DNA from: Rhodobacterales bacterium
Lineage (GTDB): Bacteria > Pseudomonadota > Alphaproteobacteria > Rhodobacterales > Rhodobacteraceae
DNA: 64,000 nucleotides
Assembly: GCA_003249215.1 (NCBI GenBank)
Contig: QKJR01000021.1
Coordinates: 1-64,000 of the forward strand
Direction: 5' to 3'
Part shown: positions 29,257 through 40,926 of the stretch, in pieces
Numbering within the stretch: position 1 is the first letter of the stretch
Layout of the letters: every line of letters begins with the position of its first letter
Notes under the pieces: generated by a model
Told to the model about the DNA's origin: nothing
Databases searched by the model: none
What the model saw: the letters and a program-made list of their open reading frames with translations, nothing else
Translations under genes and position numbers: made by a program

Positions 29257-29286
29257 TCATCCGATCCGGACGCTGGTGCGTATACA
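29257..29286 (+). promoter_or_regulatory. candidate ECF promoter of the gpx-cryB operon
   Basis: TCATCC, 18 bases, then TATACA. The spacing and the CG-TA step before the -10 match the TGATCC-N18-TA promoters flanking rpoE in this window, with one mismatch in the -35 hexamer. It ends 36 bp upstream of the gpx start. RpoE control is an inference. Confidence 0.4.
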
Positions 29287-29322: not shown

Positions 29323-29865
29323 ATGAATCGACGTCTTTTTTCGATGGGTGCACTCGCCGGACTGCTGAGCATGATGCAGCCGCTCAGCGCCGAACCCGCG
29401 CCTTCGTTCAGCTTCCCCTCGATCGACGGGGGCATCCTGGACACGGGCGAGTGGCGGGGCCAGCCGATTTTGGTGGTGAACACCGCTTCGATGTGCGGAT
29501 TCAGCGGGCAACTGGCCGACCTTCAGACGCTGCACGAAACCTATGGCCCGCGCGGGCTCGTCGTTCTGGCGGTGCCCTCCGACAGCTTCAAGCAAGAACT
29601 CTCCGACGCAAAACAGGTCAAGGAATTTTGCGCCTTGCAGTTCGGCATCACCCTGCCGATGACCGACATCCTGCCGGTGACCGGGGCGCAGGCGCATCCG
29701 TTCTATCGCTGGCTGCGCGAAACCCACGGCTTCACCCCCGGCTGGAATTTCAACAAGGTTCTGCTCGATGGCGAGGGGCAGGTGGTCGGCACCTGGGGGC
29801 CGATCACCAAACCACTCTCGGGCGCGATCACCGAAGCCTTTATCCCGCTGCTGCCTCGGTCGTGA
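29323..29865 (+). CDS. periplasmic glutathione peroxidase-family protein (Cys type)
   Basis: A 180-residue GPx-family thiol peroxidase with a signal peptide at about residues 1-23 (ending PLSA). The catalytic cysteine is Cys58 in NTASMCGFSGQ (selenocysteine replaced by Cys), with the catalytic Trp/Asn in WNFNK. It reduces hydroperoxides; bacterial Cys-type enzymes mostly use thioredoxin rather than glutathione. A GGGGAGA site precedes the ATG. Its stop overlaps the GTG start of the photolyase gene by four bases, tying peroxide defence to photo-repair in one operon. Confidence 0.9.
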   Translation: MNRRLFSMGALAGLLSMMQPLSAEPAPSFSFPSIDGGILDTGEWRGQPILVVNTASMCGFSGQLADLQTLHETYGPRGLVVLAVPSDSFKQELSDAKQVKEFCALQFGITLPMTDILPVTGAQAHPFYRWLRETHGFTPGWNFNKVLLDGEGQVVGTWGPITKPLSGAITEAFIPLLPRS

Positions 29866-31403
29866 GCGGCGCGCTGATCCTGATCCTCGGCGATCAGCTC
29901 TCGCCCGGGATGTCGTCGCTGGCCGGAGCCGATCCGCGCCGCGATGTGGTCCTGATGGCCGAGGTGCTTGCCGAAGCGCGCTATGTCGATCACCACAAGC
30001 AAAAGCTGGTGCTGGTCTTCGCCGCGATGCGCCACTTTGCCGAAGAACTGCGGTCCGCGGGCTGGCGCGTCGACTATCGGCGGCTGGGAGAGGGCTTGCC
30101 CGACCTCGAGACGGCGCTCGAACAGGCGATCGCCCGGCATGACCCGGATCAGCTCGTCGTGACCGAGCCGGGGGAATGGCGTCTGTGGCAGGCGATGCAG
30201 AGCTGGCCCGCGCGGTTCGGGCGGCCGGTCACGCTGCGCGAGGATACCCGCTTCCTGTGCAGCCGCACCGAATTCGCGGCGTGGGCCGAGGGGCGCAAGA
30301 CGCTGGTGATGGAGCATTTCTATCGCCTGATGCGGCGCAAGACCGATCTGTTGATGGAGGGCGATCATCCCGCGGGCGGGCGCTGGAATTTCGACGCCGA
30401 AAACCGCGCCCCGGCGCAGGGCAGCCTGTTCCTGCCCGCCCCGCCCGCGGGCGCGCGCGATGCGATCACCACCGAGGTGCTGGCGATGGTGGCGCGCGCG
30501 TTCCCCGACAGCTTCGGCCGGATCGAGCCGTTTCACTGGCAGGTTACCCGCGCAGGCGCCGAGGCCGCGCGGGACCGCTTCCTGCGCGAGGCTCTGCCCG
30601 AGTTCGGCCGCACGCAGGATGCGATGCTGGCCGATCGGCCGTGGATGTATCATTCGCTCCTCTCGCCCTATCTCAACCTCGGGCTGCTCGACCCGCTCGA
30701 CCTGTGCCGCCGGGCCGAGGCCGAATGGCGCGCCGGCCGCGCGCCGCTTGCCGCCGTCGAGGGCTTCATCCGCCAGATCATCGGATGGCGCGAATATGTG
30801 CGGGGTGTCTATTGGCTGAAGATGCCCGAGTATGTCGAGGAAAACGCGCTCGGGGCGCGACGCCCTTTGCCTCCGTTCTATTGGACGGGCGAGACCCCGA
30901 TGCGCTGTTTGGCGCAGGTGATCGGCCAGACGATCGACACGGGCTATGCTCATCACATCCAGCGCCTGATGATCACCGGCACCTATGCGCTGCTGATCGG
31001 GGCCGATCCCGCGGCGGTGCATCGCTGGTATCTGGGGGTTTATGTCGACGCCTATGAATGGGTCGAGCTGCCCAATACGCTGGGCATGTCGCAGCATGCG
31101 GATGGAGGGTTTCTGGCGACCAAGCCCTATGCCGCCAGCGCCAATTACATCGACCGGATGTCGGATTACTGTCAGGGCTGCGCCTTTGATCCCAAGGCCC
31201 GGACCGGGGTGCGCGCCTGCCCGTGGAATGCGCTCTACTGGGAATTCATCGCCCGCCATGCCGAGAGATGGGCCGGCAACCCACGCATGGCCTTGGCCCT
31301 GCGCAGCTGGCGCGCCAAGCCCGAGCCCGAGCAACTGGCGCTGCGCGCCGCCGCGGCCGCGCATCTGGCCGAGCTGGATGCCGCGCCCCCCTATGCGCCC
31401 TGA
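29862..31403 (+). CDS. cryB: iron-sulfur bacterial cryptochrome/photolyase (FeS-BCP)
   Basis: A 513-residue CryB/PhrB-class protein. The four cluster cysteines are at residues 349, 437, 440 and 453, in the spacing known for Agrobacterium PhrB (350, 438, 441, 454). The region [18 protein letters not shown] and [16 protein letters not shown] matches the FAD pocket of this class. Characterised members bind FAD, a 4Fe-4S cluster and 6,7-dimethyl-8-ribityllumazine, and repair (6-4) photoproducts or act as light regulators. The start is a GTG overlapping the gpx stop (GTGA). Neighbours are gpx upstream and a convergent DUF2256 gene whose stop lies inside its 3' end. Confidence 0.92.
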
Positions 31404-32305: not shown

Positions 32306-32335
32306 TGAACCGTTGCGCTCTCATCTCCGTAACCA
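32306..32335 (+). promoter_or_regulatory. candidate ECF promoter of the fasciclin gene
   Basis: TGAACC, 18 bases, TAACCA. The spacing and the CG-TAACC -10 match the lipid-operon promoter at 36982-37011, with one mismatch from TGATCC. It would give a leader of about 60 bases before the fasciclin start at 32402. Confidence 0.45.
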
Positions 32336-32401: not shown

Positions 32402-32887
32402 ATGCTGCGCAATTTCATGATGGCCACCACCGCCACGATGATGCTCGCCGGACCTGCCCTTGCCGATGGTCACAAGGTCGACATCGTCGATACCGCGGTT
32501 GCGGCGGGTGATTTCACGACGCTGGTGGCGGCGGTTCAGGCGGCCGGGCTGGCCGACACGCTCAAGGGTGAGGGGCCCTTCACCGTCTTTGCGCCGACCG
32601 ATGCCGCCTTTGCCGCGCTGCCCGAAGGCACGGTCGAGGGTCTGCTCAAGCCGGAAAACAAGGATCAGCTGGTCGGCATCCTGACCTATCACGTGGTGCC
32701 CGGCGCGGTGAAATCCACGGATCTGACCGAAGGCATGAGTGCCGCCACCGTGCAGGGCGCGCCGGTCACCTTCTCGCTCGAGGGCGGGGCAATGATCAAC
32801 GGCGCCAAGATCACGGCCGCCGATATCGAGGCGTCGAACGGCGTGATCCATGTGATCGACACGGTGATCATGCCGCCGGCCAATTGA
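32402..32887 (+). CDS. fasciclin (FAS1) domain secreted protein
   Basis: A 161-residue protein with a signal peptide (about residues 1-22, ending GPALA) and one FAS1 domain: [34 protein letters not shown] (H1 box) and [10 protein letters not shown], ending [15 protein letters not shown] (H2 box). Bacterial FAS1 proteins are secreted or surface-associated with poorly defined binding roles. A GAGGAGA site precedes the ATG. It is monocistronic: an intrinsic terminator follows. A possible ECF promoter lies upstream. Confidence 0.92.
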
Positions 32888-32963: not shown

Positions 32964-33677
32964 TCAGCCCCGCATTGCGCCAACCGGGACGAGGCGATGC
33001 GCGACGATGATGAGCGCCACCCCCTCGGCACAGATCCCCGCGATCACCCAATCCCCCGCCGAGGCATTGGCGACGATCACCCCGACCAGCGCCCAGATCA
33101 CCCCGGCGCGATAGCTCCAGATCGTGGGGCGACTGGCCGCGACCCCGACCGCAACCGCCAGCACGCCGCCGATCAGCGCGATGGCCGCGATCCGGGGCGG
33201 CAAAATGCCATAGCCCGTCAGCACGACCGATACCGCCACCCCCGAGGCCGCCGTCAGCCAGCCCGCATAAAGCCCGACCGCCGCCGTCTCGTGCAAGCTC
33301 GGTCGCAGCCGGCGCATCGCCATGATCGCGCCCGCCGCCATCGGCAGGATCATCACCGTCGCCAGCACGGGCGAGCGCATCGCCGCCTCGATCCAGAAGA
33401 GGCCGATGAAGAGGCTCACCCCCAGGGGCCATGCGGCGCGGCTCCAACCCGGGGTCGCGGCGGGGCGCGCCACCGCCCAGGCCGCCGTCGCGATCAGGGC
33501 CAGATAGATCAGCCCCCAGATCGAGAAGGCCCAGCCCACCGGCTGCGCGGGCCAACGATCGACCTGAACGGGAAAGCTCTCGCGGTAGAAGCCGCCAAAT
33601 CCGTTCGAGAAGATCGGCGAGGCGGCAAAACCCACCGCAAGAATCAGGATGGCAAGCCGCTTTCTGCGGTCAGTCAT
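32964..33677 (-). CDS. TspO/MBR-like tryptophan-rich membrane protein
   Basis: A 237-residue integral membrane protein with about seven hydrophobic segments. The stretch QPVGWAFSIWGLIYLALI and the Trp-rich pattern throughout resemble long TspO/MBR-related proteins rather than the canonical 160-residue TspO. A GGAGA site precedes the ATG at 33677. It lies 62 bp downstream of the cyclopropane-synthase-like gene on the same strand and is probably the last gene of that operon. In Rhodobacter, TspO is linked to tetrapyrrole and oxygen signalling; applying that role here is only a guess. Confidence 0.65.
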   Translation of the reverse strand: MTDRRKRLAILILAVGFAASPIFSNGFGGFYRESFPVQVDRWPAQPVGWAFSIWGLIYLALIATAAWAVARPAATPGWSRAAWPLGVSLFIGLFWIEAAMRSPVLATVMILPMAAGAIMAMRRLRPSLHETAAVGLYAGWLTAASGVAVSVVLTGYGILPPRIAAIALIGGVLAVAVGVAASRPTIWSYRAGVIWALVGVIVANASAGDWVIAGICAEGVALIIVAHRLVPVGAMRG

Positions 33678-33739: not shown

Positions 33740-34900
33740 TCAGGTGCCTTCGTGGCGCAGCGTGACCTGAACCACGTCGCAGCGCCCCGTGGCGAAGGCC
33801 GCGGCGCAGCCCTCGAGATAGAATTGCCAGCTGCGCAGGAAGGCATCGCCATAGCCCAGCCGGTGGATCCGCGCGCGCTGCTCCATCATGCGCTCCGCCC
33901 AGATTCGGCAGGTGCGGGCATAATCCTGACCGAAGGCGAAGCTCTCCTGCACCCGCAGCCCGGCCTGCCCCGCGGCATGCGCGATGCTGGCCGAACAGGG
34001 CAGCATGCCGCCCGGGAAAACATGCTGGCGGATGAAATCCGAGCGCTGCCGATAGACCGAAAATTCGGCGTCGGGCACGGTGATCGCCTGCAGCACCGCG
34101 CGCCCGCCCATCGCCAGCCGCGCCTTGAGGGTGGCGAAATAGGTCGGCCAATACCGCTCGCCCACGGCCTCGACCATCTCGATTGAAACCAGATTGTCGA
34201 ACCGGCCCGTGACCGCGCGGTAATCCTGAAGCCGGATCTCGGCCCGTCCGTCGAGACGCGCATCGGCATAGCCCTTTTGCGAGGGCGAGAGGGTGATGCC
34301 CGTCACGCGATGGCCGTGCTCGGATGCCGCTTCGGCAAACCCGCCCCAGCCGCAGCCGATTTCCAGCAGGCTCTCGCCGGGGGCGAGCTGCGACAGGATG
34401 CGATCGTTCTTGCGCGCCTGTGCGTCTTCGAGATCCTCGGTGCCGGCGAAGATCGCCGAGGAATAGGTCATGCCGCGGTCGAGCCAGAGCTGATAGAATT
34501 CATTGCCCACGTCGTAATGCGCGCGGATGTTGCGCGACGAGCCGCGCAGGCTGTTGGCACGCAGGAGCCGGTCGATCAGCCGCATCCGCCAGCTTTGCAG
34601 CCGCGTGGGTTCGGACCACTGCGCAAGGCCCGCCTGATTGCGCATCGCGATGGCGAGCGCCCCCTCGAGCGTGTCGCTGTGCCAGTCGCCCGAGATCCAC
34701 CCCTCGGCTAACCCCACATCCCCGCGCATCGCGAGCCGCCGCAGCAGGCGCCAGTCGCGGATGCGGACCTCGGCCTCGGGCCCCTGCGAGCCGAAGTTCA
34801 GCCGCGCCCCGTCCGGAGTGGTGACGATCAGACGTCCCTCGCCGATCCCCTCGAGGGCCGAGAAGAAGCGGGTCTGGAGCGCGCGGGTCGCGATGGTCAT
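33740..34900 (-). CDS. cyclopropane-fatty-acyl-phospholipid synthase-like methyltransferase
   Basis: A 386-residue SAM-dependent lipid methyltransferase of the CFA synthase family. The SAM motif I is LLEIGCGWGGFAE (about residues 178-190); the upstream ISGDWHSDTLEG and NIRAHYDVGNEFYQLWLD segments and the downstream SIEMVEAVGERYW are family hallmarks. It acts on unsaturated acyl chains of membrane phospholipids. In R. sphaeroides, related RpoE-controlled enzymes make methylated and furan fatty acids rather than cyclopropanes. It overlaps the DUF1365 stop by four bases in an operon headed by an FAD oxidoreductase. Confidence 0.88.
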   Translation of the reverse strand: MTIATRALQTRFFSALEGIGEGRLIVTTPDGARLNFGSQGPEAEVRIRDWRLLRRLAMRGDVGLAEGWISGDWHSDTLEGALAIAMRNQAGLAQWSEPTRLQSWRMRLIDRLLRANSLRGSSRNIRAHYDVGNEFYQLWLDRGMTYSSAIFAGTEDLEDAQARKNDRILSQLAPGESLLEIGCGWGGFAEAASEHGHRVTGITLSPSQKGYADARLDGRAEIRLQDYRAVTGRFDNLVSIEMVEAVGERYWPTYFATLKARLAMGGRAVLQAITVPDAEFSVYRQRSDFIRQHVFPGGMLPCSASIAHAAGQAGLRVQESFAFGQDYARTCRIWAERMMEQRARIHRLGYGDAFLRSWQFYLEGCAAAFATGRCDVVQVTLRHEGT

Positions 34901-35676
34901 CGGCTGATCTCCTCATGGGGGGCGGGGGGAAGCGGGCGATAAGCGGCGCCCTTGAGTTTCAGGCGCGCCGCGTGCGAATAGATTTGCACGACGACCCGCA
35001 GCGCCCCGCCCGGACGGCGCAATGCGCCCGCGAGGATCGCCCCGGTGGTCAGCGGGCTGAGCGCGCCGGTCATCGCGGTCTCGACGCCCGCCTCGCCGTC
35101 GATCTGCGAGATCAGGATCGAGAGGCCGTCGGGGCGGAGCGCGAAGCGAAAGCGATACTCGCCCGCCACATCCTGAAACGGCGAGACGTGGAACACCTTG
35201 CGCGCGCTCATCCGTGTGGCTGGGGTGATCGGGGCGAAATCGGGTTGCGCCAGCAGATAGCTGTGGCGCTGGCCGAAAGTGTTGTTCACCTCGGCGATGA
35301 CGGCGCAGAGCGCATCCCCCTCGATCAGCATCCAGAAGCTGACCGGGTTGAACCAATAGCCCAGAAACCGAGGCTGCGTCAGCAGAGCGAGCACTCGGCC
35401 GGGCGCGCGCGCAAGACCCGCCTGCGCAAACTGATCCCAGGCCCAGTCGGTCCCACGGCCCGCTCCGCGCGGCCCTCCGTGATCGCGGCGGTAAAGCGCG
35501 AGCAGATTGAAGCGATCGAGTGACAGGCCACGCGGTGGGTGCGCGGTTTCGGGCGCCAGCAGGATGTGATCGGCCCGCGTGCGAAAGCTGTGGCGCAGCG
35601 GGCCGCGGCGGGCGTGCGTGATCTGGGCGCTGAAGGCGAGCACCTCGCCCGCGGCCAAGCGCGCGCCGAGCGTCAC
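34897..35676 (-). CDS. DUF1365 protein
   Basis: A 259-residue DUF1365 family member (family landmarks HARRGPLRHSFRTRADHILL, RFLGYWFNPVSFWML and EVNNTFGQRHSYLL). No membrane helix or signal is clear. The start is the GTG at 35676, which overlaps the stop of the FAD oxidoreductase by four bases (GTGA). DUF1365 genes nearly always lie between an FAD amine-oxidase-like gene and a CFA-synthase-like gene, exactly as here, implying a step in the same lipid modification. Its biochemical role is not established. Confidence 0.9.
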   Translation of the reverse strand: MTLGARLAAGEVLAFSAQITHARRGPLRHSFRTRADHILLAPETAHPPRGLSLDRFNLLALYRRDHGGPRGAGRGTDWAWDQFAQAGLARAPGRVLALLTQPRFLGYWFNPVSFWMLIEGDALCAVIAEVNNTFGQRHSYLLAQPDFAPITPATRMSARKVFHVSPFQDVAGEYRFRFALRPDGLSILISQIDGEAGVETAMTGALSPLTTGAILAGALRRPGGALRVVVQIYSHAARLKLKGAAYRPLPPAPHEEISR

Positions 35677-36956
35677 GTGCGCACCCGGGCGAAGGGCCGC
35701 GTGCGCGCGACGCGCCAGGCGCTGGCAAAGCCGTCCTCGTGGAAGCCGTTGCGCAACCACGCCCCGGCAAACCAGGTGTTGCGCTTGCCCTGCAGCGCGG
35801 CGATCTGCTTTTGCGCCGTGAGCGCCGCCAGATCGAAGACCGGATGGCTGAAAGTGACCTCATCATAGATTAGCCGTTCGTCGAGCACTTGCGTCGGGTT
35901 CAGACTGACGAAGAGGGGATCATCCTCGGGGATGTTTTGCAGCCGGTTCATCCAATAGCTGACGTCGACCGCGCCCGATCCGGTATCGCCGCGGCTGACC
36001 CACGAGCTCCAGCATTTGCGCCGCCGCGGCATCACCCGCGGATCGGCGTGCAGGACGGTGCGGTTGGGTTGGAAGCGGATCGCCGAGAGCGCGGCGCGTT
36101 CGCTCTCATCGGCATCGGCCAGCATACGGAGCGACTGATCGGGGTGGGTTGCCAGGATCACATGGTCGAAAGCCTCGGGCTCGGCTCCCTCGACGCGGAG
36201 TTGCACGCCCTTGCCATCGCGGCGGATTGCCTGCACGGGTGCGCTGGTGCGCAAGACAACGCCCGCGCGGATCAGAGCCGCCTGCAGCCGCGTGACGTAG
36301 GAGACCGAGCCGCCTTCGACCGTCCACCACTGATGGTGCTGGCCCTTGGACATGAGCCCGTGGTTGCGCATGAACCGCACCAACGCCTGCGCCGGGAACG
36401 CGCCGATGCCCTGATCGGGTGTCGACCAGATCGCGCCGCAGAACGGATAGAGATAGGCCTCGCGGAACTGCGCGCCGAGCCCCATCTGCGTGACCAGTTC
36501 GGCGATCGTCACATCCGGCGTGGCTGCGACCGCCGCCTCGGCCCCTGCGTTGAAGCGCAGGATATCGCGGATCATCCCGTAAAACCGCGGATCGACCAGA
36601 TTGCGGCGTTGGGCGAACAGCGTATCGAGCGAGCGCAGCGCATATTCGATCCGCCCCTGGTTCAGCGACACGCCAAAGCTCATGTCGGAGCGGATCACCG
36701 GCACGTCGAGATCGCGGAAAAGCCCGGTCAGATGCGGGTAATTGGTGTAGTTGAAGACGATGAAACCGGTATCGACCGGCTGATCGCCGCGCCGCCCCGC
36801 CACCACGGTGCGCGCATGCCCGCCAAACCGCGGCTCGGCCTCGAAAAGGGTCACGCTGTGATCGCGCGCCAGAAGCCAGGCCGCCGAGAGGCCGGAAATG
36901 CCACCACCAATGACAGCGACGCGTTGCGGGGCGCCTTGAGTGAGATCGAATGCCAT
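35673..36956 (-). CDS. FAD-dependent amine-oxidase-like oxidoreductase (COG2907 type)
   Basis: A 427-residue flavoprotein with an N-terminal dinucleotide fold (VAVIGGGISGLSAA, residues 13-26, then FEAEPRFGGHARTV) and a C-terminal FAD-binding segment (TWFAGAWLRNGFHEDGFAS). It heads the FAD/DUF1365/CFA-like/TspO-like operon, divergent from rpoE. A good TGATCC-N18-TAACCT promoter lies just upstream. By analogy with the R. sphaeroides singlet-oxygen regulon it may desaturate or oxidise a methylated acyl chain; that is inference. Confidence 0.9.
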   Translation of the reverse strand: MAFDLTQGAPQRVAVIGGGISGLSAAWLLARDHSVTLFEAEPRFGGHARTVVAGRRGDQPVDTGFIVFNYTNYPHLTGLFRDLDVPVIRSDMSFGVSLNQGRIEYALRSLDTLFAQRRNLVDPRFYGMIRDILRFNAGAEAAVAATPDVTIAELVTQMGLGAQFREAYLYPFCGAIWSTPDQGIGAFPAQALVRFMRNHGLMSKGQHHQWWTVEGGSVSYVTRLQAALIRAGVVLRTSAPVQAIRRDGKGVQLRVEGAEPEAFDHVILATHPDQSLRMLADADESERAALSAIRFQPNRTVLHADPRVMPRRRKCWSSWVSRGDTGSGAVDVSYWMNRLQNIPEDDPLFVSLNPTQVLDERLIYDEVTFSHPVFDLAALTAQKQIAALQGKRNTWFAGAWLRNGFHEDGFASAWRVARTRPFARVRT

Positions 36957-36981
36957 GGGACTTCTTCGGTTGCTTCGAAAG

Positions 36982-37011
36982 AGGTTACGGGCTTGGGCCG
37001 TCAGCGGATCA
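36982..37011 (-). promoter_or_regulatory. RpoE-type promoter of the lipid-modification operon
   Basis: On the minus strand: TGATCC, 18 bases, TAACCT, ending 26 bases before the FAD oxidoreductase start. The -35 hexamer is identical to that of the rpoE promoter 28 bp away and to the TGATCC element reported for RpoE in R. sphaeroides. Confidence 0.75.
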
Positions 37012-37038
37012 CTCCGCCGGAGATTTTTTGGCGCCGAG

Positions 37039-37068
37039 TGATCCGTGCGCGCCTGTGACGCGTAGGTT
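37039..37068 (+). promoter_or_regulatory. RpoE-type autoregulatory promoter of rpoE-chrR
   Basis: TGATCC, 18 bases, TAGGTT. A transcript would begin near 37075, about 90 bases before the favoured rpoE start. Position and sequence fit positive autoregulation of rpoE. Confidence 0.75.
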
Positions 37069-37165
37069 GATCATGGAAACCGTCATTGCGCCCGTTCGGG
37101 ACACAGCTCATACCTTGGAGACGCCCTTGCCCCCGCCGGGGCAACAGGGCGTTGCAAAGGCGCCG

Positions 37166-37735
37166 ATGACGCTGGAGGCCCCGGTGACGAAAGAGCTTTC
37201 CGACCTCAGCCGCGACCTGATCGCCGTGCGCGACCGGCGCGACCGCGAGGCCTTCGGGCGCCTCTTCGACCATTTTGCACCGCGGCTGAAATCCATGATG
37301 CTGCGGGGCGGGCTGACCGATGGAAGCGCCGAGGATGTGGTGCAGGACGTGATGCTGGCAGTCTGGCACAAGGCCGCGCAGTTCGACCCGCACCGCGCCG
37401 ACGCGGCCGGCTGGATCTATGGCATCGCCCGCAACCGCCGGATCGACCTCGCGCGCCGCAAGCCGCTGTCGCAGCCCGAGGAGATGCCCGATCTGCCGAG
37501 CCTCGATCCTGACGCCGGTCAGCTTCTGGCCCTGCAGCAGGAGGCGCATCACCTCGCCGCGGCCCTCGCCCGCCTCGCGCCCGAACAGGCCGAAGCTCTG
37601 CGCGCGGCCTATTTCGACGATATCCCCCACAGCCGCATCAGCGAGATGACCGGACTGCCGCTCGGCACGATCAAGTCGCGCATCCGCCTCGGCCTCGACC
37701 GCCTCAGACATGAGCTGAGGAGCATCGCACCATGA
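37166..37735 (+). CDS. rpoE: ECF sigma factor RpoE (singlet-oxygen response)
   Basis: About 189 residues. Region 2 (DREAFGRLFDHFAPRLKSMM to AEDVVQDVMLAVWHKA and GWIYGIARNRRIDLARRKP) and region 4 (YFDDIPHSRISEMTGLPLGT then IKSRIRLGLDRLRHEL) are complete and close to Rhodobacter RpoE. A start at 37073 is possible in frame, but it coincides with the expected transcription start of the TGATCC-N18-TAGGTT promoter. The ATG at 37166, with AAGG upstream, is therefore preferred and gives the usual length. RpoE drives the transcriptional response to singlet oxygen. The stop overlaps chrR by four bases, and the gene is divergent from the lipid operon it probably controls. Confidence 0.93.
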   Translation: MTLEAPVTKELSDLSRDLIAVRDRRDREAFGRLFDHFAPRLKSMMLRGGLTDGSAEDVVQDVMLAVWHKAAQFDPHRADAAGWIYGIARNRRIDLARRKPLSQPEEMPDLPSLDPDAGQLLALQQEAHHLAAALARLAPEQAEALRAAYFDDIPHSRISEMTGLPLGTIKSRIRLGLDRLRHELRSIAP

Positions 37736-38364
37736 CAGACATTCAGCATCATATCTCCGACGACCTTCTCGACAACTATCGCGCCGGGTCGCTACCCCAT
37801 GCCTTCTCGGTGGTGGTGGCCGCGCATCTGTCGCTGTGTGACGAATGCCGCGCCCGGCACGAGGCGCGCGACATGATCGGGGGCGCGTTGCTCGAGGGGA
37901 CCGAGGTGGCACCGCTCGGCACGGACGCGCGGGCCCGGATCATGGCCGCGCTCGACACGCCCGCGCCCGCCCCCGCGCCGCGCGGGTCGGGCGTGTTTCC
38001 GGCACCCGTGATGGCCGAGCTCGGTGGACGCCCGCCGCGCTGGCGGATGCTGGGTGGCGGGATCCGGCAACAGATCCTGTCCGCCGATCGCAGCGGATCG
38101 CTGCGGCTGCTTTACATCCCACCTGGCAAGGCGGTGCCCGAACATGGCCATCGCGGGCTCGAACTGACGCTGGTGCTGCAAGGCAGCTTCGCCGATAGCG
38201 AAGGTGCGTTCCGGCGCGGCGATGTCGAGACGGCACATGACGACATCAACCACCAGCCCATCGCGGGACCCGGTGAGCCCTGCATCTGTCTGGCCGCGAC
38301 CGACGCGCCGCTGCGCTTCCACGCGATGCTGCCGAGCCTGTTGCAGCCGATCTTCCGGATATGA
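37732..38364 (+). CDS. chrR: zinc anti-sigma factor ChrR
   Basis: A 210-residue two-domain anti-sigma factor. The N-terminal zinc anti-sigma domain has His6/His7 and HLSLCDEC with His32, Cys36 and Cys39, equivalent to His6, His31, Cys35 and Cys38 of R. sphaeroides ChrR. The C-terminal cupin has His138, His140, Glu144 and a later His (INHQP, about residue 174), matching the second zinc site (141, 143, 147, 177). The ICLAATDAPLRF stretch is near-identical to R. sphaeroides. ChrR binds and inactivates RpoE until singlet oxygen triggers release and proteolysis. The start overlaps rpoE by four bases. Confidence 0.95.
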   Translation: MTDIQHHISDDLLDNYRAGSLPHAFSVVVAAHLSLCDECRARHEARDMIGGALLEGTEVAPLGTDARARIMAALDTPAPAPAPRGSGVFPAPVMAELGGRPPRWRMLGGGIRQQILSADRSGSLRLLYIPPGKAVPEHGHRGLELTLVLQGSFADSEGAFRRGDVETAHDDINHQPIAGPGEPCICLAATDAPLRFHAMLPSLLQPIFRI

Positions 38365-39098
38365 GCGGCGCGCGGCCCCAACGTGTCTGGATCATTGGCG
38401 CGAGCGCGGGCATCGGTGCGGCGCTTGCGCGTGCCCTGGCGGCCCAGGGGGCGCAGCTCGTCCTGTCGGCGCGCGACGAAGCGGCCTTGGCCAGACTTGC
38501 CGCCGACTGTGGCAGGGCCGAGGTCGTCCCGCTCGATCTAGGGCAACCCGTTGACCTCGCCGCGGCCTGCGCGCGGCTGAGGGCGGCAGCCCCCTTCGAC
38601 GCGATCATCTGCACCGCTGCGCTCTATGATCCGGGGCGGGTCGCCGATCTGGACCCCGAACGGGTCGAGGCGATGGTGCGCGTCAACCTGCTGGGCACAC
38701 TCGAGGTTGCGCGGCTGTGCCCGCCGCTGATCCGTGACGGCGGGCAGCTCGTGCTCTTCGGGTCGGTTGCGGGCTATATCGGCCTGCCGGGTGGGCAGCC
38801 CTATTCCGCGACCAAGGCCGCGATCAACAACCTCGCCGAGAGCCTCGCCGTCGAACTGGCGCCGCGGGTCGATGTGCGGCTGGTCTGCCCCGGGTTCGTC
38901 GCAACCCGCCTCACCGCGAAGAACCGCTTCACGATGCCCGCCATCGTAACCCCCGAGCAGGCGGCCGAAGCGGTGCTGCGCGGCATGGCAGGGCGCGGCT
39001 TCGAGATCCATTTCCCCCGCCGCTTCACCCTCGCCATCAAGGCGCTGCGCCTGTTGCCCTACGCCTTCTCCCTGCCGCTCTTGCGTCGGCTGGGCTGA
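38361..39098 (+). CDS. short-chain dehydrogenase/reductase
   Basis: A 245-residue classical SDR: GASAGIG cofactor motif near residue 13, Ser in LFGSVAGYIG and catalytic YSATK. It overlaps chrR by four bases and so is the third gene of the rpoE-chrR operon. The C-terminal hydrophobic stretch (LAIKALRLLPYAFSLPLLRRL) is typical of SDRs acting at membranes. Linked to a lipid-modifying cluster, a lipid aldehyde or ketone is a plausible but unproven substrate. Confidence 0.88.
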   Translation: MSGARPQRVWIIGASAGIGAALARALAAQGAQLVLSARDEAALARLAADCGRAEVVPLDLGQPVDLAAACARLRAAAPFDAIICTAALYDPGRVADLDPERVEAMVRVNLLGTLEVARLCPPLIRDGGQLVLFGSVAGYIGLPGGQPYSATKAAINNLAESLAVELAPRVDVRLVCPGFVATRLTAKNRFTMPAIVTPEQAAEAVLRGMAGRGFEIHFPRRFTLAIKALRLLPYAFSLPLLRRLG

Positions 39099-39106
39099 AA
39101 CCCCGG

Positions 39107-39511
39107 TCAGGCCAGCTTGCCGCTCAGCGCCGCGACACCCACCCAGGCCGCGAAGCCGGTCAGCGCAATGCCCCAAAACCCGTCGACCACCACCTGCTGC
39201 ATCGACCAGTCGCGCAGCGTGGCGTAGTTGGTCATCTCATAGGTGCCATAGCACAGGAGCCCCAGCACCATCCCGCCCGCAAGCGCCTGCAACGGCGCCC
39301 CGGCCCTGAGCGCGGGGATCGAGACAAACCACATGAGCCCCGCGACATAGGCCAGATAGAAGAGCGCCGCAGGCCCAAGCCGCAACGGATCGGCCAGCAG
39401 ATGCCCGACATGACGCTCGAAGACGGGGCGGATCAGCAGACGGATGCCGACGATATCGGCCCCGAGGAACGCGGCCGTGGTGATCAGGTAAAGCAGGGCA
39501 TAGGTCGGCAT
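39107..39511 (-). CDS. DUF2177 membrane protein
   Basis: A 134-residue protein with four predicted membrane helices and the family stretch GLLCYGTYEMTNYATLRDW, which identifies DUF2177. Function unknown. It lies 24 bp downstream of folE on the same strand and convergent with the SDR of the rpoE operon. DUF2177 genes are common next to FAD/DUF1365/CFA clusters in proteobacteria, which ties it to the same island. Confidence 0.88.
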   Translation of the reverse strand: MPTYALLYLITTAAFLGADIVGIRLLIRPVFERHVGHLLADPLRLGPAALFYLAYVAGLMWFVSIPALRAGAPLQALAGGMVLGLLCYGTYEMTNYATLRDWSMQQVVVDGFWGIALTGFAAWVGVAALSGKLA

Positions 39512-39535: not shown

Positions 39536-40267
39536 TCAGACGCGCCCGGTGCGGCGCAGGCTCAGGAATTCGCGGCGCAGGTCCGAATTGGTCTGGAACG
39601 CGCCGCGCATCACCGAATTTGTCATCACCGACTGGTCGTCCTTGACCCCACGCCAATGCATGCAGAAGTGATCCGCCTCCATCACCACGGCCAGACCATC
39701 GGGGCGGATGCGCGCCTCGAGTTCATCGGCGAGCATCACCACAGCCTCTTCCTGGATCTGCGGGCGCGACATGATCCAGTCGGTCAGGCGCGCGTATTTC
39801 GACAGGCCGATCAGCTCGGATGAGGGATTGGGCAGAACGCCGATCCAGACCCGGCCGATGATCGGGCACAGATGGTGCGAACAGGCGCTGCGCACGGTGA
39901 TCGGCCCGACGATCATCAGCTCGTTCAGGCGCGACACGTTGGGAAAGGTGGTCATCTCGGGCGCCGGGCGATAGCGGCCGCCGAAGACCTCGTCGACGAA
40001 CATCTTGGCCACGCGCTTTGCGGTCTCGGCGGTGTTGTGATCCGAGCCCGTGTCGATCACCAGCGCGCTCAGCACGCCCTGCATATGCTGCGCCACCTCG
40101 CGCTGCAGCGCGTCGAGCTCGCCCTCGTGCAGGACCGCAGAGATATTGTCGTTGGCGTGAAACCGCTGCCCGCTCTCGATCAGGCGCGCGCGGATGCGCT
40201 CGGACACCGAGGTCGCTTCCGCGGCCTCAGGCTGGGTTTTCGCGTCAGTCGTGGAGCGGTCCAGCAT
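39536..40267 (-). CDS. folE: GTP cyclohydrolase I
   Basis: A 243-residue FolE (EC 3.5.4.16), which converts GTP to 7,8-dihydroneopterin triphosphate, the entry to folate. The zinc ligands are visible at Cys129, His132 (ACSHHLCP) and Cys202 (FCMHWRG), matching E. coli Cys110, His113 and Cys181. The N-terminus is about 20 residues longer than in E. coli and is disordered in composition. No TGATCC promoter was found upstream. It may share a transcript with DUF2177. Confidence 0.95.
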   Translation of the reverse strand: MLDRSTTDAKTQPEAAEATSVSERIRARLIESGQRFHANDNISAVLHEGELDALQREVAQHMQGVLSALVIDTGSDHNTAETAKRVAKMFVDEVFGGRYRPAPEMTTFPNVSRLNELMIVGPITVRSACSHHLCPIIGRVWIGVLPNPSSELIGLSKYARLTDWIMSRPQIQEEAVVMLADELEARIRPDGLAVVMEADHFCMHWRGVKDDQSVMTNSVMRGAFQTNSDLRREFLSLRRTGRV

Positions 40268-40926
40268 CTCTTCTATCCCTTTATCAAGCGGGCAGCGCCC
40301 GGCGCGTGTTTCGTTCCTGTAAGGGCCGGTGGCGGGGAGTTCGCTTTGCCGGTCAAGCCGGTTGCCGCAGGGCCCTTGGACTTCCTACGCAGCGAAGAGG
40401 GTTTCGGATCACTCCCGGCGATCGCGCGGTGCTCTCGGCGCCAGATCGCGGGGCCAATCCACCGCTTGGCGGTCATGGGATTTGTCCGGTTCCTGCTATC
40501 GCTACGCAACCTTGCCGAACTTCGGCACAAACGCAGTCTCGGCATCAACGATGACACCATCCGTTTTTGATGAACCGCTTCACGGCCCTCGGCATCCCGG
40601 TCACCGTGGCGCGCGGAGAAGTGTGCCCGGGGAAAGGGCGGCCGCGATCAGCAGATGATTTGCGCAACAGCGCCCTCTTCAGGCGTAGCGCGCCCCCGTC
40701 GACATCTGGAGGCTGGCCGTTCGCGACCGCGCGCTCAAGCGTTCCCACCGTATCGTCCGGCTGCGGCGCGCGGGCTTGATCGGCCGGGGCGGGCGAAGTC
40801 CGGTCCCGCCTCCGTGACCCGGTCGCCGGGGCGCCCTGATCGCTCGTCGGGGTCGCGGCGGCCGATCGCCGGGGCAGGTTGAGGGGCGTATCGCGGCCCC
40901 GCTGTCCCCGCTCCGGCGCTTGGCCA
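40268..40926. other. 659-bp intergenic region with decayed mobile DNA
   Basis: No intact gene. It contains a short IS6-type transposase remnant (40451-40570). The rest has open frames of no recognisable kind and no ribosome binding sites. The folE promoter should lie in the first 100 bases, but no clear motif is seen. Confidence 0.6.
40451..40570 (+). pseudogene. IS6-family transposase N-terminal fragment
   Basis: The frame reads GPIHRLAVMGFVRFLLSLRN, then LAELRHKRSLGINDDTIRF and a stop. This fits the N-terminal helix-turn-helix region of IS6/IS26-type transposases (RFxLSxRDxxELxxxRGIxVxxxTIRxW). The frame ends exactly where the conserved Trp should come, and no DDE domain follows. Terminal repeats are not visible. 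Assignment rests on 35 residues only. Confidence 0.5.

Follow-up and report, generated by a model that had tools for sequence, protein, structure and literature searches.

The question raised by this locus is whether two TGATCC boxes, lying on opposite strands between rpoE-chrR and a divergent lipid-modification operon, form one linked control element or two separate promoters, and where the rpoE message and its protein begin. The answer that we strongly favour, from comparison of sequences, is that they are two independent and opposed RpoE promoters, both of which would fire on removal of ChrR to give a positive loop with a brake, and that the rpoE message is leaderless and encodes an N-terminally extended RpoE. 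The two operons are arranged as follows in the window, by which we mean the whole 64,000-nucleotide stretch of DNA that was analysed.

37073..37735, plus strand: rpoE from the predicted leaderless ATG, 220 residues, of which residues 2-37 are a poorly conserved extension
37184..37735, plus strand: rpoE from an internal GTG, 183 residues, preceded by GGAGG at 37174-37178
37732..38364, plus strand: chrR, zinc anti-sigma factor, from structure and family matches
38361..39098, plus strand: short-chain dehydrogenase (SDR), overlapping the end of chrR and probably in the same operon
35673..36956, minus strand: UfaD-like FAD amine-oxidase-type protein, from its domain; first gene of the divergent operon
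34897..35760, minus strand: UfaO-like DUF1365 protein, from its domain; exact start uncertain
33740..34900, minus strand: CMAS-type methyltransferase, probable UfaM, from domain and context
32964..33677, minus strand: membrane-type protein of 237 residues, last in the divergent operon, with no Pfam match

Pfam and structure matches bear out the gene assignments of the initial annotation, namely rpoE, chrR and an FAD/DUF1365/CFA-like operon. RpoE matches the solved R. sphaeroides complex (2q1z_A, E 3.6e-45) and contains the Pfam Sigma70_r2 and r4 domains, regions 2 and 4 being close to those of R. sphaeroides RpoE. ChrR matches 2z2s_B (E 1.3e-61), TIGR02451 (192 bits) and Cupin_7, and has a zinc anti-sigma domain (HxxxCxxC) and a cupin domain with metal ligands. 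Aligned to 2z2s_B, its ligand motifs are HLSLCDEC, HGHRGLE and a later histidine; the metal ligands of ChrR are named in PMC6852236. The divergent operon encodes, in order, FAD amine-oxidase-type, DUF1365 and CMAS domains (Pfam), and the likeness to UfaD and UfaO is one of domain and order. In R. sphaeroides, UfaD (RSP1091) and UfaO (RSP1090) are described as turning the product of UfaM into furan fatty acids (PMC7380195).

The R. sphaeroides system (RSP_1091-1087/rpoE-chrR, ECF11, singlet oxygen) has a gene pair of the same type ahead of rpoE-chrR, with the same promoter motif and enzyme types. The third divergent gene is different, being a CMAS here and a symporter (RSP_1089) in R. sphaeroides, where UfaM is RSP_2144 and is numbered next to phrA, whereas the probable UfaM of the window is inside the divergent operon. 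Downstream of chrR the window has an SDR gene; R. sphaeroides has one (RSP_1087) in the ufa operon, which amounts to a change of gene order within the regulon. For the CMAS of the window there is a single match at E<=1e-30 both in its own, incomplete genome (G000) and in the congener G046. Six genomes encode the CMAS elsewhere (L229-L234, 42-45% identity), preceded by a photolyase-like frame that was recognised by eye; since this resembles the arrangement of RSP_2143-2144, the CMAS of the window is probably UfaM. Exact RpoE-type sites were absent from the flanks of CMAS loci L228-L235, which may stop short of the photolyase-CMAS promoter.

Read directly off the window, the minus-strand TGATCC lies at 37011-37006 and is followed after 18 nucleotides by TAACCT (36987-36982), and the plus-strand TGATCC lies at 37039-37044 and is followed after 18 nucleotides by TAGGTT (37063-37068). 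The pair is therefore present on opposite strands between rpoE and the lipid operon, as first described, although the boxes are separated by 27 bp (37012-37038) rather than the 28 bp given. The TAxxxx hexamers that had been put forward as the second element fare less well: their TA dinucleotide holds, but they overlap only the second half of the conserved -10 element, which is CGTA (at 36989-36986 and 37061-37064), and in the consensus from relatives the bases 3' of TA are weakly conserved at most. The initial annotation also lacks the predicted leaderless start of rpoE and the additional RpoE-type sites close by. The interval from the ufaD ATG to the rpoE ATG is 116 bp and holds both promoters.

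36986..37011, minus strand: ufaD-side RpoE-type promoter, TGATCCG-N15-CGTA, predicted +1 near 36977
37039..37064, plus strand: rpoE-side RpoE-type promoter, TGATCCG-N15-CGTA; its predicted +1, 37073, is the A of an ATG in the rpoE frame

The sequence TGATCC-N18-TA occurs four times in the window, against 0.70 expected from shuffles, and TGATCC-TA with a spacing of 16-20 occurs nine times, against 2.86 expected. A refined motif, TGATCY-R-N15-CGTA, was derived from relatives as the consensus of 101 rpoE-side and 53 ufaD-side sites. It has three exact matches in the window, upstream of ufaD, rpoE and folE, where 0.05 are expected, and none of 100 shuffles reached three. The own-operon promoter of the window and its relatives, TGATCC-N16-CGTA, matches the R. 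sphaeroides RpoE promoter consensus in print, TGATCC(N15)GCGTA (PMC5036791).

A third exact site and two weaker ones lie outside the divergent pair.

40386..40411, minus strand: third exact RpoE-type site (refined motif), upstream of folE and the DUF2177 gene
39536-40267, minus strand: folE, GTP cyclohydrolase (PF01227)
39107-39511, minus strand: DUF2177 gene (Pfam)
32306..32331, plus strand: site with one mismatch (TGAACC), 96 nt upstream of the fasciclin gene (32402-32887)
29257..29282, plus strand: one-mismatch site (TCATCC), 66 nt before the glutathione peroxidase gene (29323)

The glutathione peroxidase gene is followed by a photolyase-related gene (genes 29323-31403, plus strand). Matches with one mismatch or better number nine in the window against 2.39 expected, so that some of the nine are chance. 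Among 110 loci, with duplicates removed, an exact site precedes folE in six of the seven loci where this gene was found; the corresponding figures are 13 of 16 for fasciclin and 20 of 34 for DUF2177, the latter including several near-identical Paracoccus loci. The RpoE regulon of R. sphaeroides lists fasciclin (RSP_1409), folE2 (RSP_1852) and cfaS (RSP_2144) (PMC7074977, table). The window differs from R. sphaeroides in having folE, a fasciclin gene and a peroxidase gene in the neighbourhood, each preceded by an RpoE-like site. Its GTP cyclohydrolase (PF01227) presumably belongs to a different family from FolE2.

Across its own genome, which is 82% complete, the motif without the purine rule has 15 matches, three of them in this island. 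Four of the other 12 (L178, L179, L180 and L184) are apparently inside coding stretches according to the frame listing; long frames are a poor guide in this GC-rich DNA, the island promoters themselves being mostly inside long spurious frames. In complete relatives, three of the four exact matches are at this locus in G046, and three of six in G016.

To what extent is the divergent pair a general feature? Among 120 genomes of the family, 92 have a ChrR match at E<=0.001, that of the window included. The family set comprises 80 loci (79 genomes) and excludes 12 genomes in which the match was weaker or partial. Public genome records contributed a further 33 loci, of which three duplicates were dropped; L165 has no RpoE match. 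Nearly all the family loci come from different genera, and related genomes are still not independent observations. In 69 of the 80 family loci ufaD is divergent from rpoE. The rpoE-side site is present in 74 of the 80, comprising 65 of the 69 divergent loci and nine of the 11 others. On the ufaD side a canonical site is found in 32 of the 69. Most of the remaining 37 (24 loci) have a site within one mismatch, against 0.8 in shuffles; in the other 13 the best match has two mismatches, a number that shuffles nearly equal (10.4) and that is unconvincing by count alone. Of the divergent family loci, 66 have an rpoE-side site, and in 63 of these the pattern ATCY-R-N14/15-CGTA also finds a site on the ufaD side.

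In 31 of these 63 ufaD-side sites the first two bases of the -35 element are changed, mainly to TCATCC or GCATCC, while the rpoE side stays TGATCY. This suggests that the 31 family loci, which fall between L090 and L139, have a lipid promoter that is weaker or differently tuned.

The distance between the boxes ranges from 4 to 136 bp in the 50 loci with two canonical sites, many being at 23-28 bp. Such variation implies two independent promoters and not one composite element, and the proposed link between the operons should not be read as a coupled element. The boxes are identical and inverted, as would be expected of a palindromic operator for a dimeric regulator; this reading is scarcely credible, and is rejected because of the same range of distances, the CGTA spacing being moreover fixed for each box, and single sites preceding other genes. 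Shared or overlapping -35 boxes were also considered for the altered relatives and rejected: no gap is below 4 bp in 83 classified loci, and the gaps for the 31 altered ufaD-side sites are 11-142 bp.

For R. sphaeroides it is reported that both divergent operons are under RpoE (PMC3818230), and that rpoE-chrR and the furan fatty acid genes belong to a core RpoE regulon (PMC6852236, citing Dufour 2008). The conservation of the pair, together with this literature, fits the proposal that both operons have RpoE-type promoters and that the lipid operon is a core output. The co-control of rpoE-chrR and the lipid operon is thus supported by the comparison, and is mostly known, being already in print for a relative. 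The two operons would thus be switched on together, but the lipid operon is more than an output: in R. sphaeroides it is also an input through positive feedback, the UfaD and UfaO genes being described both as RpoE output and as a requirement for degradation of ChrR (PMC3818230, PMC6852236, PMC7380195).

It could nevertheless be argued that many relatives have a ufaD-side site of little or no activity, and that the lipid operon is therefore not a universal output. We regard this as rather unlikely. It would be consistent with the altered -35 bases, with the three of 66 loci in which no ufaD-side site was found, with the 11 of 80 that lack a divergent ufaD, with the 13 two-mismatch loci that hardly exceed shuffles, and with the listing of R. 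capsulatus as having no homologue of RSP_1091-1087 (PMC7074977, table). Against it, the site of the window is itself canonical, and the 24 loci within one mismatch far outnumber the 0.8 of the shuffles.

The new feature of the locus is on the rpoE side, where the predicted +1 coincides with the A of an ATG. The rpoE-side consensus of the 101 loci runs on to this ATG at a fixed position: it lies 34 nt from the first T of TGATCC in 79 loci and 35 nt in 12, and in 72 of the 74 family loci with the promoter it is at one or other of these positions. Although the ATGs were counted in any frame, all 91 of them are in the rpoE frame, with no stop. Reading on from the ATG to the folded domain, the rpoE frame stays open at all 91 loci, the other two frames at four and 12 of them. 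Within up to an equal length upstream of the ATG, the same frame meets a stop in 54 of 91, and downstream in none. A Shine-Dalgarno match of at least three bases is absent ahead of the ATG in 75 of the 91, compared with 55% of random stretches of these regions, and is present in 16. The ufaD-side sites and those of folE, DUF2177 and fasciclin have an A at positions 34-35 in 51-60%, and the genes there mostly start later; the offset of the ATG therefore agrees with the transcription start that these other sites suggest.

When 30 loci were ranked by similarity to R. sphaeroides RpoE, 27 had the same arrangement. Among these 30, 19 of the 21 genomes labelled new are positive; L198 is labelled old, though it is outside the 80. 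There are exceptions. One genome (L074/L186) has no in-frame ATG at this position, and its RpoE is the nearest found to R. sphaeroides RpoE, with 79% identity. L203 has an ATG at +37, and L089 an in-frame ATG at the same offset; in L189 the +34 ATG is out of frame or interrupted, and eight loci from public genome records, mostly outside the family as titled, have no ATG at +34/35. A search of 394 family genomes did not recover R. sphaeroides itself, the best RpoE identity being 79%. Since the start predicted to be leaderless in the window is missing from L074, the nearest available relative, and R. sphaeroides is not in the set, the model organism may lack the extension.

We infer from this architecture that the rpoE mRNA is self-induced and leaderless and encodes an N-extended RpoE. 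The leaderless, N-extended start is a well-supported prediction, and it is new here: a literature search limited to openly accessible papers found no report of a leaderless or N-extended RpoE, and the accessible portions of PMC9031893 and PMC10673084 contain nothing on rpoE starts.

The extension amounts to 37 residues ahead of the internal start in the window; from the ATG to the reference codon there are 48 codons in the window and 34-70 in relatives. In 35 aligned sequences no residue from M1 to residue 57 is invariant or nearly so, structure prediction gives pLDDT <50 across most of residues 1-38, pointing to disorder, and the codon-position bias is weak (0.345/0.273/0.349). Of 92 sequences, 53 have an in-frame internal start with a Shine-Dalgarno sequence of at least four bases, where codon shuffles give 11.6 +/- 2.8; it lies near the folded domain, most often 11-15 codons ahead of the reference codon. 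In the window this is the GTG at 37184, after GGAGG, giving 183 residues, close to the 184 of the R. sphaeroides chain. As judged by its architecture, the predicted transcript can encode an N-extended sigma factor in frame with a shorter form.

At position 2 of the predicted long RpoE, 57 of 92 sequences have L, F or M. This may perhaps be a degradation signal, or reflect a preference in initial transcription.

Could the stretch simply be a conventional untranslated leader, some 110 nt long, with only the internal start in use and the ATG at +1 a coincidence of the initiator sequence? The near match of 183 to 184 residues, the enrichment of the internal Shine-Dalgarno, the lack of conservation and predicted disorder of the extension, and the unusable ATG of L189 would all be compatible with this. 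Nevertheless, one would not expect an untranslated stretch to stay in frame across 34-70 codons, and the 91 in-frame, stop-free ATGs of the 101-locus set, with the other frames open in so few, make such a leader improbable. Another reading retains the leaderless start, proposing that only the long RpoE is made, the internal start being a relic and no isoform switch existing. We consider this quite possible, though not what we expect: the ATG at +34/35 is nearly universal in family loci with the promoter, but in-frame internal starts with a Shine-Dalgarno are over-represented, most often 11-15 codons before the reference codon, which speaks against a relic.

We put forward tentatively, as plausible if somewhat short of probable, that most Rhodobacteraceae make two forms of RpoE. 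Basal transcripts would yield the short form, through the internal start, and the long form, with its disordered tail, would be made only from the leaderless mRNA that stress induces. This tail would mark the long form for fast removal or would alter ChrR binding, resulting in a transient pulse, as a convergent counterpart of sigma-R'. The long form may have been overlooked, as the model R. sphaeroides could lack the leaderless start.

The counterpart in question is sigR/RsrA of Streptomyces coelicolor. There too an ECF sigma factor controls its own gene and is paired with a zinc anti-sigma factor, and the transcript that it induces can code for an N-extended form. We take its ECF group to be different from that of the RpoE studied here. 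It also belongs to a different phylum, and the fixed placement of an ATG on the predicted +1 is the feature observed here. The N-extension of Streptomyces sigma-R' is given as 55 residues (PMC4921905). A precedent closer in phylogeny is acuR-acuI-dddL of R. sphaeroides, where again a regulator gene is first in its operon and the mRNA starts at the AUG; the leaderless acuR message is reported to be translated in this member of the family (PMC3017554). AcuR is however a TetR-family repressor and not a sigma factor, and the description in PMC3017554 mentions no internal second start.

The mechanism that we propose would operate as follows. Stress would remove ChrR, and the freed RpoE would transcribe both sides. 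Leftward transcription would produce UfaD, UfaO and the probable UfaM, and hence furan fatty acids; if degradation of ChrR depends on UfaD and UfaO, as it does in R. sphaeroides, this would close a positive loop. Rightward transcription would produce RpoE itself, ChrR and the SDR, with ChrR acting as the anti-sigma brake. The rightward transcript would begin at the A of the in-frame ATG, and would thus be leaderless and add 37 probably disordered residues, while short RpoE could come from the internal start with its Shine-Dalgarno. The sequences themselves establish the motif and its conservation, the constant place of the ATG, its agreement with the rpoE frame and the rarity of a Shine-Dalgarno ahead of it. 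Control by RpoE and the feedback loop are known from R. sphaeroides and carried over here by analogy; the exact +1, leaderless translation in vivo, and the two forms with their roles are what we infer for this family.

The divergent pair confirms a known feedback design in another genus. The start of rpoE may have wider consequences, and a word of caution is that R. sphaeroides may not represent the Rhodobacteraceae in this respect. A leaderless and N-extended rpoE, if true, would add a translational layer, and perhaps one of protein stability, to the textbook sigma/anti-sigma switch, and would mean that the annotated start of RpoE may in some cases lie too far downstream. It would also bear on whether ECF sigma factors have repeatedly evolved self-induced, tagged isoforms.
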